The notes under the pieces were generated by a model, which searched no databases, had not been told where the DNA came from, and saw only the letters and a program-made list of their open reading frames with translations. A stretch of DNA of 22,662 bases from a virus. The stretch is from positions 1 to 22,662 of the IMG/VR virus record IMGVR_UViG_3300044825_000653, one strand, 5' to 3'. Every line of letters starts with the position of its first letter. Positions within the stretch are counted from its first letter, which is position 1. The position numbers and the translations under genes are program-made. This document shows, piece after piece, positions 4,415-20,757 of the stretch.

Positions 4415-5166
4415 CAATAATCCCGCCCCTTAATTTGAACGAAACCGCCGGTATCGCGTTTTGCTTTGCCTTTGGCATACAAGGCAACGACCACGCCGGC
4501 CGGCTCAATATGGCGAACATCGGTGTCGTCGCCGTCAACGACCGGCCACCCGCGAAATTCGGCTGGTATATCGCTCTGCTTTTGGAATACCACGGCCGCG
4601 CGTTTATTGGCCGGATTGATCAGGCCTTTAATTGATATCGGTTTCGGCGTGATAGCGGAAAATGAATACGTCAGATCATAGTTGCCGGCCGTTTTGCCCG
4701 TCAGGTTTCGGCTAGGGTGTTTCGTGTAATCGTAAAATTGAACGTCAGCGAACAGCTGGAATATCGTTTTGCCGTCAATCAAGATATTTTCAAACGGGAT
4801 ATCTGACGTGCCATTTGGCCGCACAAGCGGGATTAATCCTAATTTTTCAGCGCGCCGTGCGTGCGACCATACATCAGCGGCCATTGATAGCATAAACGCG
4901 CGCTGATTCTCACGGAAAAACGCGGTTTTGGCCGCTCTGGCCGCTTGCACGGCATTAAACGCGCCGCGGCCGGCCGATTTTAAACAGCCGTCAAAACAGC
5001 CGGCCATAATCGCAAACGGACAAAGCTTTTCATCCGGTACCAGATAGCAGATAGCTGTCAGATATCCGATTTTCTCGCCCTTAATTGTTTTGGCGCTGGA
5101 TTCACCCAAAACGCGGCGATAGGGTAAACCTTCACGTTTTAATTGTGCTTTGAACGGGTTTTGCAT
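4414..5166 (-). CDS. Gp88-like phage protein, 250 aa
   Basis: This resembles the phage 'gene product 88' family (named from a mycobacteriophage gene; biochemical role unknown to me). The recognisable core is at residues about 39-85: four cysteines in C-x8-C-x7-C-x3-C spacing (AIC, LCPF, GC, GCL), then SAGRGAF, then a helix VQAARAAKTAFFRENQRAF. The cysteines could coordinate a metal or Fe-S cluster. A likely nucleotide- or substrate-binding beta-region follows (SFSAITPKP, VVDGDDTDVRHIEP). SD AGGAG lies 8 nt before the ATG. It is the largest gene of the leftward operon, and its stop is coupled to the 52-aa gene. The family call is from memory of the motif; the metal proposal is inference. Confidence 0.8.
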   Translation of the reverse strand: MQNPFKAQLKREGLPYRRVLGESSAKTIKGEKIGYLTAICYLVPDEKLCPFAIMAGCFDGCLKSAGRGAFNAVQAARAAKTAFFRENQRAFMLSMAADVWSHARRAEKLGLIPLVRPNGTSDIPFENILIDGKTIFQLFADVQFYDYTKHPSRNLTGKTAGNYDLTYSFSAITPKPISIKGLINPANKRAAVVFQKQSDIPAEFRGWPVVDGDDTDVRHIEPAGVVVALYAKGKAKRDTGGFVQIKGRDY

Positions 5167-8693: not shown

Positions 8694-8704
8694 ATGCCGC
8701 TATT
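8694..8704 (+). other. Possible 5' remnant of the interrupted small gene
   Basis: ATGCCGCTATT here, with a GGGGA SD-like sequence just upstream, resembles the true start ATGCCACTCATT of the small gene at 9271 on the far side of the HNH gene. It may be the original start codon region left behind by the insertion. The reading frame that continues from it is only the antisense of the HNH gene. Confidence 0.4.
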
Positions 8705-9281
8705 CGCGGAAACCGTGCGGGGTATGCTTCATATGCTCCAGCGAATGACAGTTTGGGCACAAAACTTCCAAGTTGCTCAAGTCATTGTTTTTGCGGTTTC
8801 TGTCTTTGTGATGCACACCCAAAATTTTTTGCTCCGCGTCATACCCACAACGCTCACATTTAAGCACCATACCCCGTGCCAACATGGTTTTTCGAACCGT
8901 AGTAAACGTAGGAACCCATTTACTTTTAGCAACTTTGTTGACGCAAGCTCTCGAGCAATATTTTCTTTTTTCGGATGGCGAACTAAGAAATTTTTTTCCG
9001 CAATGAGCGCAACTATTTTCTACACTGCCTTTTTTATGCATAGCTTTGTGGTAGCATTTTGGCGAACAGTATTTGGCTTTGTTTGCGCGGCTAGCAATGT
9101 GGGTAAATTCCGTGCCACATTCATTGCAATTTGCCGTAATTTCAATTCTTGCAGCCAAAGCCATGCAACTTCTGCCGCAGTATTGCGCGGTATTTTTTCT
9201 GTATTCAGGCACCATAAAAACGTCTTTGCAATGCGCGCAAATTTTTTTATATTTAACGCGGGAGCGAGTTATGCCACTCAT
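8700..9281 (-). CDS. HNH endonuclease with three Cys-pair zinc repeats
   Basis: A probable homing-type nuclease, 193 residues. Three consecutive treble-clef-like repeats, each CxxC...YCxxxC (CAHC/YCGRSC, CNEC/YCSPKC, CAHC/YCSRAC), precede a classical HNH: CERCG, GVHHKDRNRKNNDLSNLEVLCPNCHSLEH. The cysteine pairs should bind structural zinc and recognise DNA. The ATG at 9281 is chosen over that at 9296, because GGAGG lies 8 nt before it. It is antisense to the whole late operon, more AT-rich than its neighbours, and overlaps the downstream small gene by 11 nt: the pattern of a selfish mobile insertion. Confidence 0.92.
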   Translation of the reverse strand: MSGITRSRVKYKKICAHCKDVFMVPEYRKNTAQYCGRSCMALAARIEITANCNECGTEFTHIASRANKAKYCSPKCYHKAMHKKGSVENSCAHCGKKFLSSPSEKRKYCSRACVNKVAKSKWVPTFTTVRKTMLARGMVLKCERCGYDAEQKILGVHHKDRNRKNNDLSNLEVLCPNCHSLEHMKHTPHGFRE

Positions 9282-9420
9282 TAAAAATGCCTCCAAACAA
9301 GCGTTTAGAAAAAATGTCTCCGCCGAAGCTAAGACAAAACCAATTAAACAAGCCGTAGCAATAGCTTACAGTGTTCAGCGTAAAGCTGCAAGTAAAGCTT
9401 CGGCTAAAGGCAAAAAGTAA
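9271..9420 (+). CDS. Small basic phage protein, 49 aa (HNH insertion target)
   Basis: MPLIKNASKQAFRKNVSAEA at the N-terminus, then PIKQAVAIAYSVQRKAASKA and a Lys-rich tail. MPLIK...AFxKN...KQAxAIAYSVQR is a familiar small protein of phage genomes near the portal gene; role unknown. The start follows SD GGAG by 6 nt, and its TAA overlaps the portal ATG (TAATG). Its 5' codons also carry the start codon and SD of the antisense HNH gene. Longer upstream frames are only shadows of that gene. Confidence 0.8.
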   Translation: MPLIKNASKQAFRKNVSAEAKTKPIKQAVAIAYSVQRKAASKASAKGKK

Positions 9421-16237: not shown

Positions 16238-17671
16238 GTGAAGACGCCTATCCTCGGCCAATCGTATGTGGCTCGCAGCGTTAACGCTGCGGATAGCCGC
16301 ATGGTAAACCTGTACCCCGAAGCCACACCGGCGCCAGAAGGTATGGAGCCTGCGTTTCTGAACCGGGCACCAGGCTTGCGTAAGCTTGCGACTGTCGGCA
16401 CTGGTCCCATCCGTGGGCTGTGGCAGTACGGCAATTACGGTTACGCCGTCTCAGGCAGCAAGCTCTACCGCATCTCAAGCAACTGGACGTCGGTGCCGAT
16501 CGGCAACGTCAGCGGTACTGGCCCTGTGTCGATGGTGGATAACGGCACACAGCTCTTTATTGCAGCTAATCCTGACGGTTACATCTACGACGCGTCAACC
16601 GAAGAGTACGCCGAAATCACCGATGTAGATTTCCCCGGCGCGGTAACAGTCGGCTATTTGGACGGCTATTTTGTCTTCCAAGAGCCAAACTCCCAGAAGT
16701 TCTGGACGTCTGAACTGCTTGACGGCACCCAGCTCGACCCGCTGTCGTTTGCCAGTGCTGAAGGTATGCCAGACAACTTGGTGTCGCTGTTTGTCGACCA
16801 CCGCGAGGTGTGGCTGTTCGGCACCCAGTCGGTCGAAGTCTGGTACAACGCAGGCGACACACCGTTTCCGCTAGCTCGCATCCAAGGTGCGGTCAACGAG
16901 CTGGGCTGCGCGGCGACCTTCTCGGTCGCCAAGATGGACAACTCGCTGTTCTGGCTAGGGTCAGACGCCCGTGGCCAAGGCGTGGTGTTTCGTGCTAACG
17001 GCTACACTGGCCAGCGCATTTCTACCCACGCGGTTGAGTTTGCCATCCAGAGCTACGGCACCATCTCAGACGCAATCGCTTTTACCTACCAGCAAGACGG
17101 CCATGCTTTCTACGTGCTGACCTTTCCGACTGCTCAGAAGACTTGGGTGTTCGATGTGGCCACGCAAGCCTGGCATGAGCGTGCTGGCTTTGCCAACGGG
17201 CAGTTTATCCGTCACCGTGCGAACTGCCAGATGTTCTTCAACAACGAAATCGTTGTCGGCGACTTCCAAAACGGCAAGATTTACGCTTACGATCTCGACG
17301 TGTTTGCTGACGACAACCTGCCTCAAAAGTGGCTGCGGTCGTGGCGAGCGCTGCCTACCGGCCAGAACAACTTAAAGCGTACCGCCCAGCATGCCTTGCA
17401 GCTTGAGTGCGAGACAGGTGTGGGCTTGGTTCTTGGCCAAGGCAACGACCCACAGGTCATACTGCGCTTCTCAGACGACGGCGGCCACACATGGTCGAAC
17501 GAGAAGTGGGCGGGCATGGGCAAGATGGGCAATTACGGATTTAGAGCGTTCTGGCGTCGGTTGGGCATGACTGACAAGCTGCGTGACCGCGTGTACGAGG
17601 TATCAGGCACCGACCCCGTCAAGATCGCCATTATGGGTGCCGAACTCGCTTTGTCCGGCACCAATGCCTAA
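16238..17671 (+). CDS. Packaged DNA stabilization protein (P22 gp10-like)
   Basis: 477 residues (P22 gp10 is 472). The N-terminus KTPILGQSYVARSVNAADSRMVNLYPE and the repeated beta-propeller-like segments (RGLWQYGNYGYAVSGSKLYRI, GYLDGYFVFQEPNSQKFWTS, VDHREVWLFGTQSVEVWYN) are characteristic. It forms the hexameric tail hub plug below gp4 and carries the spike or fiber. The start is GTG 3 nt after the gp4-like stop, without an SD, so coupling is likely. Its last codons overlap the fiber gene start. Confidence 0.9.
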   Translation: MKTPILGQSYVARSVNAADSRMVNLYPEATPAPEGMEPAFLNRAPGLRKLATVGTGPIRGLWQYGNYGYAVSGSKLYRISSNWTSVPIGNVSGTGPVSMVDNGTQLFIAANPDGYIYDASTEEYAEITDVDFPGAVTVGYLDGYFVFQEPNSQKFWTSELLDGTQLDPLSFASAEGMPDNLVSLFVDHREVWLFGTQSVEVWYNAGDTPFPLARIQGAVNELGCAATFSVAKMDNSLFWLGSDARGQGVVFRANGYTGQRISTHAVEFAIQSYGTISDAIAFTYQQDGHAFYVLTFPTAQKTWVFDVATQAWHERAGFANGQFIRHRANCQMFFNNEIVVGDFQNGKIYAYDLDVFADDNLPQKWLRSWRALPTGQNNLKRTAQHALQLECETGVGLVLGQGNDPQVILRFSDDGGHTWSNEKWAGMGKMGNYGFRAFWRRLGMTDKLRDRVYEVSGTDPVKIAIMGAELALSGTNA

Positions 17672-19127
17672 CCCAGATAACGAACCGCAACTACCCAAGA
17701 ACCAGTCGCCGATTACTGACGACCGGACGGGGCTTGTCTCGCGTGACTGGTATCGGTTCTTCCTAAACCTATTAAATAAGGCCAATACCGGCGGCGGGTC
17801 AGGCACGGTCACATCGGTCAATGTATCGGGCGGCACGACGGGTTTAACGACCTCTGGCGGGCCTGTTACGACCTCCGGCACCATCACCCTAGCTGGTACC
17901 CTAGACGTCGATAACGGCGGCACAGGCGCCACTACAGCAGCGAATGCCCGCACTAACTTGAGCGTACCCAGCACGACAGGTTCTGGCGCGTCAGGTACGT
18001 GGGCTATTGACATCACCGGCAATGCGGCCAACGTCACGGGCACGGTAGCGATTGCTAACGGTGGCACCGGCCAGACTACGGCAGCGGCGGCCATTACGGC
18101 TTTAACAGGCACGCAGACGTCAGGCTATTACCTGCGCTCAGATGGCACTAACGCGGCTTTGGGTGCTATTCAGGCTGCGGACGTACCGACGCTTAATCAA
18201 AACACGACAGGCCAAGCAGGCAGCGTAGCCAATGCCTTGACCGCAGGCACCGGTATCTCGTACAGCGCCGGCACGACTTACAACGGCTCAACAGCTATTA
18301 CGATTAACAATTCAGCGCCAGACCAGACGGTGGTGCTGACCGGCGGCACAGGTATCAGTACGTCGGGCACGTACCCCAGCTTTACGATCACCAATACCCT
18401 GCCTGACCAAGTAGTGGCGCTAACTGGCGCGGGCACAACTAGCATTTCGGGCACGTATCCTAATTTCACCATTACGTCGAACGACCAGTACGTGGGTACC
18501 GTCACTAGCGTGTCCGGCACCGGTACGGTCAACGGTATTAGTTTGTCCGGCACGGTCACATCTAGCGGCAGCCTGACACTAGGCGGCACATTGTCAAACG
18601 TCAGCTTGACCACGCAGGTGACCGGCACGCTGCCGATCGCCAACGGCGGCACAGGCCAGACGACTGCTAGCGCCGCCTTTAACGCCCTGTCGCCAATCAC
18701 CAGCACGGGTGACTTGATTCTTGGCAACGGTGTCAACAGCTCGACTCGCCTGCCGATTGGCGCGAATACTTACGTGCTGACATCGAACGGCACGACAGCA
18801 ACCTGGGCGCTGCCAACCGGTTCGGGTGCAACGATTACGAACGACACCACCACGTCAACGAACGTCTATCCGACGTTCGCGGCTGCCACGTCTGGTTCGC
18901 TGTCAACCATCTATACTAGCAATGCAAAATTACTGTACAAACCCAGTACCGGTGAATTAACATCCACAGCAGTAGCGGCATCTAACGGCATATTTGTCAA
19001 TAGTTTAACTATTGGCACCAGCTACACGATTCCCGCAGGTTATTCGGGCATGTCTGCCGGTACGGTGACGGTGTCTGGCGGCGTGACGGTGACAGTGCCT
19101 AGCGGCTCACGATGGGTGGTGGTGTGA
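17664..19127 (+). CDS. Tail fiber / appendage protein with GTG-rich repeats
   Basis: 487 residues starting at ATG 17664 inside the gp10-like stop (earlier in-frame starts are within that gene). The N-terminal 40 residues (QSPITDDRTGLVSRDWYRFFLNLLNK) form a virion-attachment helix seen on many phage fibers. The rest is Gly/Thr/Ser-rich beta repeat: NGGTGATTAANA (84-95), NGGTGQTTAAAA (132-143) and NGGTGQTTASAA (327-338). A second repeated unit contains SGTYPSFTITNTLPDQ and SGTYPNFTITSNDQ. The C-terminus GTVTVSGGVTVTVPSGSRWVVV is a compact receptor-type beta domain. It likely binds the host surface. Confidence 0.85.
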   Translation: MPNPDNEPQLPKNQSPITDDRTGLVSRDWYRFFLNLLNKANTGGGSGTVTSVNVSGGTTGLTTSGGPVTTSGTITLAGTLDVDNGGTGATTAANARTNLSVPSTTGSGASGTWAIDITGNAANVTGTVAIANGGTGQTTAAAAITALTGTQTSGYYLRSDGTNAALGAIQAADVPTLNQNTTGQAGSVANALTAGTGISYSAGTTYNGSTAITINNSAPDQTVVLTGGTGISTSGTYPSFTITNTLPDQVVALTGAGTTSISGTYPNFTITSNDQYVGTVTSVSGTGTVNGISLSGTVTSSGSLTLGGTLSNVSLTTQVTGTLPIANGGTGQTTASAAFNALSPITSTGDLILGNGVNSSTRLPIGANTYVLTSNGTTATWALPTGSGATITNDTTTSTNVYPTFAAATSGSLSTIYTSNAKLLYKPSTGELTSTAVAASNGIFVNSLTIGTSYTIPAGYSGMSAGTVTVSGGVTVTVPSGSRWVVV

Positions 19128-19993
19128 ACGCGGTTGATATATTTAATCCGGACAGCACGGCGGTGGTTACGCCAGAGTTGATGCGGCAGAAAGTTGTGGC
19201 GCTGCAAGACGAGCTGCTGCAAATGCCGCAGGCGGACATTGTAACAACCCACACGTTTTTGCCTGGCGTGTACGAGCGTAAAATTACGGTGCCGCCGTGG
19301 ACAGTACTGACAGGCGCGGCGCATAAGACGGATTATCGCGTGCGGTTAGAAAAAGGCACGATTGCGGTAAACCGTGATACTGAAGTCGTTGTGCTGACAG
19401 CGCCATGTGAGTTTGACGCAAAAGCAGGTGAACAACGCGCAGGCCGCGTGTTTGAAGATGAAGTGGTGTGGGTGGACGTGTACGACAACCCCGACGACTG
19501 CCAAGATATACCGACGTTAGAAGACAGGCTGTACGTTGTGCCTGAATGCGGGTTAGGAGCTACACGTAGGCAATTGGCGATTGAATCAGCGCAAGCAGAC
19601 TACCAATTGTTTTTAGAGCAGTTAGGGGTGGATCAACCCACAATGGACGCCATAGTGACCATTGAAAATGATCTAGTTGATATGCCAGAAGGGCACGATG
19701 TAGAGTTAAAAGAATCGCCAGTGCATGGTATTGGCATGTTTGCTACGCGATACTTTTTTGCAGGTGAAGTTATTTGCCCTGGTCGGTTAGATGGTAAGCG
19801 TACTCCGGCAGGGCGGTACATTAACCATTCGCAAGACGCCAATGTAATGCCGTACAAGTTTGGTGATGATTTATATGTAATTGCCTTAAAAGATGTGGGC
19901 GTCGGTAACGAACTTTTTATTGACTACCGAGATGCTGTAGGCACAAATTTTGGCTTTTACTTACCCAAGGAAACAACATGTCAGGATTTATAG
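19112..19993 (+). CDS. Cupin-like plus SET-domain fusion protein
   Basis: 293 residues. Residues about 46-125 (HTFLPGVYERKITVPPWTVL, TGAAHKTDY, KGTIAVN, VFEDEVVWVDVYDN) have the strand order and His spacing of a cupin-type barrel. Residues 195-275 show SET-domain signatures: HGIGMFATR with GEVI (205-221), GRYINHSQDAN with the NHS motif (234-244) and ELFIDYRD (267-274, the C-terminal Tyr). The SET domain is short (about 80 residues), with no pre-SET or post-SET cysteines. SET domains transfer methyl from SAM to protein lysines. Start may be ATG 19112 or GTG 19124 (GTGA overlap with the fiber stop). Its 3' end overlaps the ejection gene by 16 nt. Confidence 0.8.
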   Translation: MGGGVNAVDIFNPDSTAVVTPELMRQKVVALQDELLQMPQADIVTTHTFLPGVYERKITVPPWTVLTGAAHKTDYRVRLEKGTIAVNRDTEVVVLTAPCEFDAKAGEQRAGRVFEDEVVWVDVYDNPDDCQDIPTLEDRLYVVPECGLGATRRQLAIESAQADYQLFLEQLGVDQPTMDAIVTIENDLVDMPEGHDVELKESPVHGIGMFATRYFFAGEVICPGRLDGKRTPAGRYINHSQDANVMPYKFGDDLYVIALKDVGVGNELFIDYRDAVGTNFGFYLPKETTCQDL

Positions 19994-20757
19994 CTGGTAG
20001 CGTAATTCAAGGATACGGTGCTAACCGCGCGGCAAAAGAGCAGTCGAAAGCCATGGATCGCGCTACTGCTGCGCAAGCGGAAAGCGCGCGGCAATCTATT
20101 GAAGCGCAAGAGCGCATGTTTGAGCGCCAAATTGGTCTGCAAGAGCCGTTTCGTCAAGCAGGCGTCAATGCGCTGCCCGAACTGGTTGAAGCCTCTCGCT
20201 ACACACCGTTTGGCATGGAACAGTTTCGACAAGACCCTGGGTACGGTTTCCGGTTACAAGAAGGACTGCGCGCGTTAGAGAACAGCGCGGCAGCACGCGG
20301 TGGCCTGCTGTCAGGTAACGCCATGCGCGGCATAACCCGGTACGGCCAAGGGTTAGCGTCAGAAGAGTTTGGTAATGCGTTTAACCGCTATCAAGCCGAA
20401 CGAGCAGCTCGTTTAAATCCATTGCAATCCTTGGCAGGCGTTGGCCAAAGCACAACGGCAACTATGGCAGGGCAAGCAGGTAATCTAGGCGCTGGGTTGG
20501 CATCTACTTATGGGCAAATGGGTCAAAACATGGCGCAAAACGCAATGGCGATGGGTAACATTAAAGCATCAAGTTACGCCAATATGGCTAACGCGTTGAC
20601 GGGCGGTCTTAACCAATACTTAAACCGTGAGCAAAATCGAGAAATGATGGAGCTATACGGGCCAAGACGAAATTACGGCGGCTCTGACATTGGGTTAATG
20701 GAAATGGATCCAAACTCTAGCGATTACGGTGCGTACACTAGAAGAGGACGGTTCTGA
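19978..20757 (+). CDS. DNA ejection (internal virion) protein, P22 gp7/gp14-like role
   Basis: 259 residues. N-terminal helix with Gly/Ala and many Gln (AKEQSKAMDRATAAQAESARQS), then QEPFRQAGVNALPELVE, PGYGFRLQEGLRALENSAAARGGLLSGNAMRGITRYGQGLASEEFGNAFNRY, and a Gly/Ala/Met-rich tail. GFRLQEGL.AL..SAAARGGLLSG..M is the classical signature of phage 'DNA transfer' proteins carried inside the head and ejected into the cell envelope. SD AAGGA lies 6 nt before the ATG. The following large gene should be its partner. Confidence 0.85.
   Translation: MSGFIAGSVIQGYGANRAAKEQSKAMDRATAAQAESARQSIEAQERMFERQIGLQEPFRQAGVNALPELVEASRYTPFGMEQFRQDPGYGFRLQEGLRALENSAAARGGLLSGNAMRGITRYGQGLASEEFGNAFNRYQAERAARLNPLQSLAGVGQSTTATMAGQAGNLGAGLASTYGQMGQNMAQNAMAMGNIKASSYANMANALTGGLNQYLNREQNREMMELYGPRRNYGGSDIGLMEMDPNSSDYGAYTRRGRF

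Follow-up and report, generated by a model that had tools for sequence, protein, structure and literature searches.

Most of what is known about SET enzymes comes from chromatin and pathogen effectors, and from a single algal-virus enzyme that is packaged in the virion. This viral enzyme, vSET (A612L) of PBCV-1, is a stand-alone histone H3K27 enzyme that the virus both encodes and packages in its virion (PMC7019647). In SET enzymes, N and H contact S-adenosylmethionine (SAM) (PMC1282579), and the inactive SET domain of MLL5 has lost this NH motif (PMC5094779). A further segment, SET-I, comprises 37 residues in MLL5 (PMC5094779) and has a channel segment that, in MLL enzymes, takes part in enclosing the lysine to be methylated (PMC4597100). 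Among bacteriophages, SET labels are already present on a few records, for example a Manatee Spring podophage record and a gene of Stenotrophomonas phage Ps15 (PMC9025141). We found no study of a phage family that combines SET with a cupin domain, and literature matches to 'SET domain' mostly referred to immunoglobulin I-set/C2-set domains.

The closest described relatives of the gene analysed here are grouped in PHROG 34170, which is labelled 'unknown function' and includes Rhodoferax phage P26218 gene 30 and a protein of Pseudoalteromonas phage PH1. Both share the cupin, helix and SET domain over their full length as well as the place before a gp7-like gene. A second group, PHROG 12032/24280 (PHA00672; Shewanella phage X14 gp38, Vibrio phage VvAW1 gp04), has the same cupin at the same gene position but, unlike our protein, carries no SET domain. 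The family itself is already listed, as PHROG 34170; what sets it apart is a SET domain that lacks SET-I and is joined to a cupin within the tail/ejection operon of a phage. Here, we describe this gene in a 22,662-base IMG/VR virus fragment (the window) and compare it with its relatives.

Results

The window carries P22-type late genes encoding portal (PF16510, 4e-176), coat (PF11651), gp4-like, Hc3, fibre, cupin-SET and ejection proteins. The head closure gene Hc3 (P22 gp10-like; 16238..17671, plus strand; PF11134 1.6e-13, PHROG 578 1.9e-138) anchors the P22-type order. It is followed by a GGTG-repeat ORF (17583..19127, plus strand) where P22 has its tail-needle gene 26; this ORF had no Pfam or PHROG match and is considered fibre-like from its repeats and the gene order. 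Downstream of the cupin-SET gene lies a gp7-like DNA-ejection gene (19978..20757, plus strand; PHROG 598, 1e-35). The window thus reads Hc3-fibre-cupin/SET-ejection where P22 has 10-26-14-7, and the cupin-SET gene takes the gene-14 position. Two further ORFs lie on the opposite strand: a Cys-rich HNH endonuclease ORF between the terminase and portal genes (8703-9296; PF01844, 2.1e-6), which looks like a homing-endonuclease insertion, and a GP88-family protein in the early region (4417-5166; PF17338, 6.6e-36).

The cupin-SET reading frame is open from ATG 19112 to 19993 on the plus strand (293 aa, the numbering used below). GTG 19124 is probably the true start, because the homologues L018, L028 and L037 begin at the codon that corresponds to residue 5; this start would give a GTGA overlap with the stop of the fibre ORF. 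The gene would accordingly span 19124..19993, and its stop codon (TAG, 19991-19993) lies 16 bases within the ejection gene. As the first-pass annotation had stated, the gene is nested in a tail/ejection module, and the end of the fibre ORF (19127) and the start of the ejection ORF (19978) both overlap it. Across 59 representatives, the ejection gene is next downstream in 52 by profile, and in the other seven the downstream protein shares the ejection N-terminal signature (MS and then small residues, for example MSGIATAI). In most cases the ejection gene overlaps or abuts the cupin-SET gene, and assembled bacterial genomes show the same arrangement, for instance on a 369 kb Paraburkholderia contig. 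The gene order agrees with the earlier proposal that the protein is made together with virion proteins, while its presence in the virion or its injection remains putative.

In the protein, residues 44-126 adopt a cupin fold, which a long helix connects to a SET domain at the C-terminus (residues 197-276; 19700..19939, plus strand). PF00856 (SET) matched residues 233-272 with an E-value of 2.9e-9 (37.7 bits against a cut-off of 22.4) and also matched all 56 aligned relatives at E <= 0.1. When PDB sequences were searched with the family profile, MLL1 was found at 2.7e-10, with the SPIHGxGLF and NHSxPN...E..DY segments both aligned. Structure prediction for the SET part alone gave a confident model (pLDDT 90, pTM 0.80), and all 50 of the PDB matches listed for this model were SET methyltransferases (probability 1.00). 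These included MLL1, SETD8 and vSET, each at probability 1.00, the last, a small viral SET with identical catalytic motifs but no cupin, with a TM-score of about 0.65. Together with the Foldseek matches to cupins, these results bear out the fusion of a SET and a cupin-like domain that had been read from ORF 19112-19993. As the homologues also retain NH and the terminal Tyr, the reading withstood the refuting test that had been set for it.

The SET motifs of the window protein are GxG (G206/G208), RT (230-231), GRYINHS (234-240, with NHS at N238-H239-S240), E267 and the terminal Tyr (Y272). Among 61 representatives that are less than 85% identical to one another, S202, G208, R230, T231, G234, N238, H239, E267 and Y272 never vary, and G206 and R235 are each kept in 60. 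The initially described NHS-x3-N motif has an invariant core in N-H only, as S240 can be replaced by A. The SAM-binding and catalytic residues stay invariant down to about 25–30% identity, and the dN/dS ratios of 0.093 for the SET and 0.054 for the cupin part show that both are under purifying selection. We consider it probable that the SET domain is catalytically active, because its catalytic residues are invariant, its dN/dS is low and the NH motif, which is lost in the dead SET of MLL5, is present in all 61 representatives. A dead SET domain, which had also been suggested, appears unlikely given that eight of these residues (G208, R230, T231, G234, N238, H239, E267 and Y272) never vary.

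The earlier observation that the motifs fit into only about 80 residues is correct and reflects the loss of SET-I. The family has a spacing of 30 residues between GxG and the N of NH, whereas MLL1 has 65 and vSET about 52, and the approximately 35 residues that are absent relative to MLL1 correspond to the size of SET-I. MLL1/KMT2A and SETD8/KMT5A, whose SPIHGxGLF and NHSxPN segments align with the phage domain and which are its best sequence and fold matches, are eukaryotic chromatin enzymes that contain SET-I, and MLL1 also contains a post-SET. Judged by this spacing, the phage domain is a variant of the SET superfamily rather than a canonical histone-type SET. Such a stripped-down core would test the need of SET-I for catalysis; as the segment is gone, the substrate must be placed in some other way.

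The N-terminal part (19241..19489, plus strand) is a cupin-fold beta-barrel, with a model pLDDT of about 96 and matches to PHROG 12032/24280. A Foldseek search with the full-length model (pLDDT 90) returned many cupins at probability 1.00 (best E 1.3e-6; TM, normalised to target length, as high as 0.74), in line with the cupin-like region noted before. The model joins the two domains by a long helix (residues 145-171; 19544..19624, plus strand), although with a pTM of 0.61 the domain arrangement is uncertain. In a column survey, the cupin metal ligands (HxH...E and H) were not conserved: position 69 is H, A or Q, position 71 is Q, H or Y, position 75 is H or Y, and motif 2 has no conserved His. 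By its sequence, this part is thus a cupin at the fold level without a conserved metal triad, and a metal-dependent cupin enzyme was rejected on the basis of these varying positions.

We found 128 relatives in one IMG/VR scan and at least 568 in a second; together with the SET dN/dS of about 0.09, this demonstrates that the gene is not a chance ORF. With a match of 3e-35 (residues 23-277 on profile positions 15-280 of 296), the window protein is assigned to the uncharacterised family PHROG 34170, whose members are about 26–32% identical to it and differ in nothing essential. SET domains had been described as uncommon in phages, a view that our searches correct: proteins combining cupin and SET are widespread among podophages, and cyanophages and a Stenotrophomonas phage carry mini-SETs that stand alone. 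PHROG 28741 (cyanophages P-SSM7 and P-RSM6) comprises SET domains of about 100 aa with an RTPLGGFxNHS motif and a likewise short GxG-NH spacing, but without a cupin and in other neighbourhoods, beside nrdB in P-SSM7 and beside a gp25-like gene in P-RSM6. In P-RSM6, the stand-alone SET gene (99 aa; L261 2974-3273) lies directly upstream of the gp25-like and baseplate wedge genes, a further case of SET next to tail genes of a phage. In Paraburkholderia ferrariae NBRC 106233 (L273 5225-6672), the cupin and the SET are encoded by two separate, overlapping genes in a prophage-like replication/integrase region; that they remain linked even when split speaks for a joint function of the two parts. In two further bacterial genomes, the helix and the SET are encoded but no cupin was matched. 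In MW202557, the start of an unannotated cupin-SET gene (L003 4356-5240) is overlapped on the opposite strand by an annotated 'contryphan-vn-tryptophan' gene (L003 3809-4375, minus strand).

The scan that yielded the 128 relatives also contained 30 loci whose cupin is 77–95% identical but which have no SET. All but one of them are complete ORFs of about 165–185 aa, the remaining one being cut by a contig end. DNA alignment of SET-minus with SET-plus genes showed that a segment is missing in frame between about residues 157 and 282, with both flanks homologous; residue 157 is also roughly where the homology within the helix stops. A relocated SET was found in none of 16 SET-minus records, several of which are fragments; the same search detected the SET in 15 of 16 SET-plus records, a good if not perfect sensitivity. 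On the cupin tree, there are ten changes between SET-plus and SET-minus, and well-supported branches force no fewer than five of them, although the count is rough given only 138 columns and possible recombination. Judged from these alignments and the tree, the SET is an optional attachment on a conserved cupin that has been switched repeatedly among close relatives. Such near-identical pairs of SET-plus and SET-minus phages make the function of the domain directly testable.

Our search for a methylation target covered the neighbouring virion proteins and the family itself. No lysine of the ejection protein is conserved above 47%, and no lysine in gp4, Hc3, fibre, ejection or the downstream virion protein tracks SET presence with a frequency difference above 0.6; scaffold and coat, with too few relatives, were left out of this comparison. 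Within the cupin-SET family, there is no conserved lysine for automethylation, the best candidate reaching 74%.

Discussion

Our analysis reveals a large uncharacterised bacteriophage SET family that is linked to genome-ejection genes. We see about an even chance that the gene encodes an optional late protein methyltransferase which is tethered by its cupin core to the tail/ejection assembly. Both folds, the invariance of the catalytic residues, the purifying selection, the fixed place beside the ejection gene and the optional nature of the SET are directly supported, and from them we infer activity, a lysine target, tethering and a role during assembly. The conserved cupin core would be made late, together with the fibre/needle and the first ejection genes, and the helical stalk would join it to an optional, very small and probably active SET. 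SAM would be bound via G206/G208, N238 and H239, and Y272 may aid methyl transfer to a lysine of a protein held adjacent. The likeliest substrate would be a virion protein, for example of the tail or ejection machinery, methylated while the particle is being assembled. Without the SET-I groove, the choice of substrate might be set by the placement of the cupin or by a partner protein. We favour a tethered methyltransferase because the catalytic residues are kept, the place of the gene is constant, cupin and SET stay linked when split, and a different type of protein modifier, an acetyltransferase, lies at the corresponding place in cyanophage Pan3. The repeated loss of the SET, however, makes a modification that is essential for assembly awkward, as phages evidently manage without it. 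The tethered enzyme is further weakened by the missing SET-I, by the failure of any target lysine to emerge in the ejection or neighbouring virion proteins, and by the lack of detectable homology to P22 gp14.

Alternatively, the protein could be an effector that is carried in the virion and ejected with the tail/ejection proteins, so that the SET methylates a host protein of defence, envelope or nucleoid and its optionality follows differences among hosts or their defences. Facultative switching among near-identical phages is typical of host-interaction genes, the gene sits among ejection genes, and the packaging of vSET by PBCV-1 offers a precedent from another virus group (PMC7019647). However, the paper behind the 'structural' label of the Shewanella phage X14 protein mentions no mass spectrometry, and the cupin-only forms would need another role. 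Overall, we regard an ejected effector as possible but rather unlikely.

More doubtful still is an inactive SET fold with a binding or structural role in a short tail fibre or adhesin. The PHROG 12032/24280 labels on the cupin ('short tail fiber' and 'tail fiber adhesin') point to such a role, SET-I is absent, and the presence of the SET varies as fibre-tip domains do. Nevertheless, the SAM-binding and catalytic residues remain invariant among distant relatives, unlike in MLL5, the cupin barrel does not correspond to a fibre fold, and we found no experimental basis for the fibre or adhesin label in annotation records and literature. A late cytoplasmic enzyme apart from the virion, such as a methyltransferase for host takeover whose gene happens to lie in the late operon, would suit the split genes of P. 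ferrariae in their replication/integrase region and the mini-SETs of P-SSM7 and Ps15, which are not beside tail genes, but is unlikely as nearly all other loci keep the gene directly before the ejection gene.

The cupin-SET family may also help to explain the purpose of the gene-14 position in P22-type phages. P22 gp14 itself (PHROG 651, DUF2824, 'head morphogenesis') likewise lies between gene 26 and gene 7, but homology to the cupin-SET protein was rejected (hhalign probability 0.3%), so that the two have only their position in common. More broadly, we tentatively propose, at somewhat less than even odds, that a widespread class of podophages builds a SET-I-less SET lysine methyltransferase on a cupin into its tail/ejection assembly to modify virion or host proteins, and that the gene-14 place is a general one for protein modifiers. 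If true, bacterial viruses would possess a system of protein modification that uses SET domains and is tied to genome delivery. Acetyltransferases resembling Pan3_09 were considered for P22 gp14, T7 gp13 and PBR31 orf028, but none of the three has Pfam or PHROG support; the best PDB match of T7 gp13 is an acetyltransferase, but with an E-value of 0.39. The lead that the position may attract protein-modifying enzymes comes from Pseudanabaena phage Pan3, in which a PHROG 1249 acetyltransferase (8e-11; L282 2181-2600) lies directly upstream of the ejection gene, and from Pam1, which has an annotated acetyltransferase near a comparable place.
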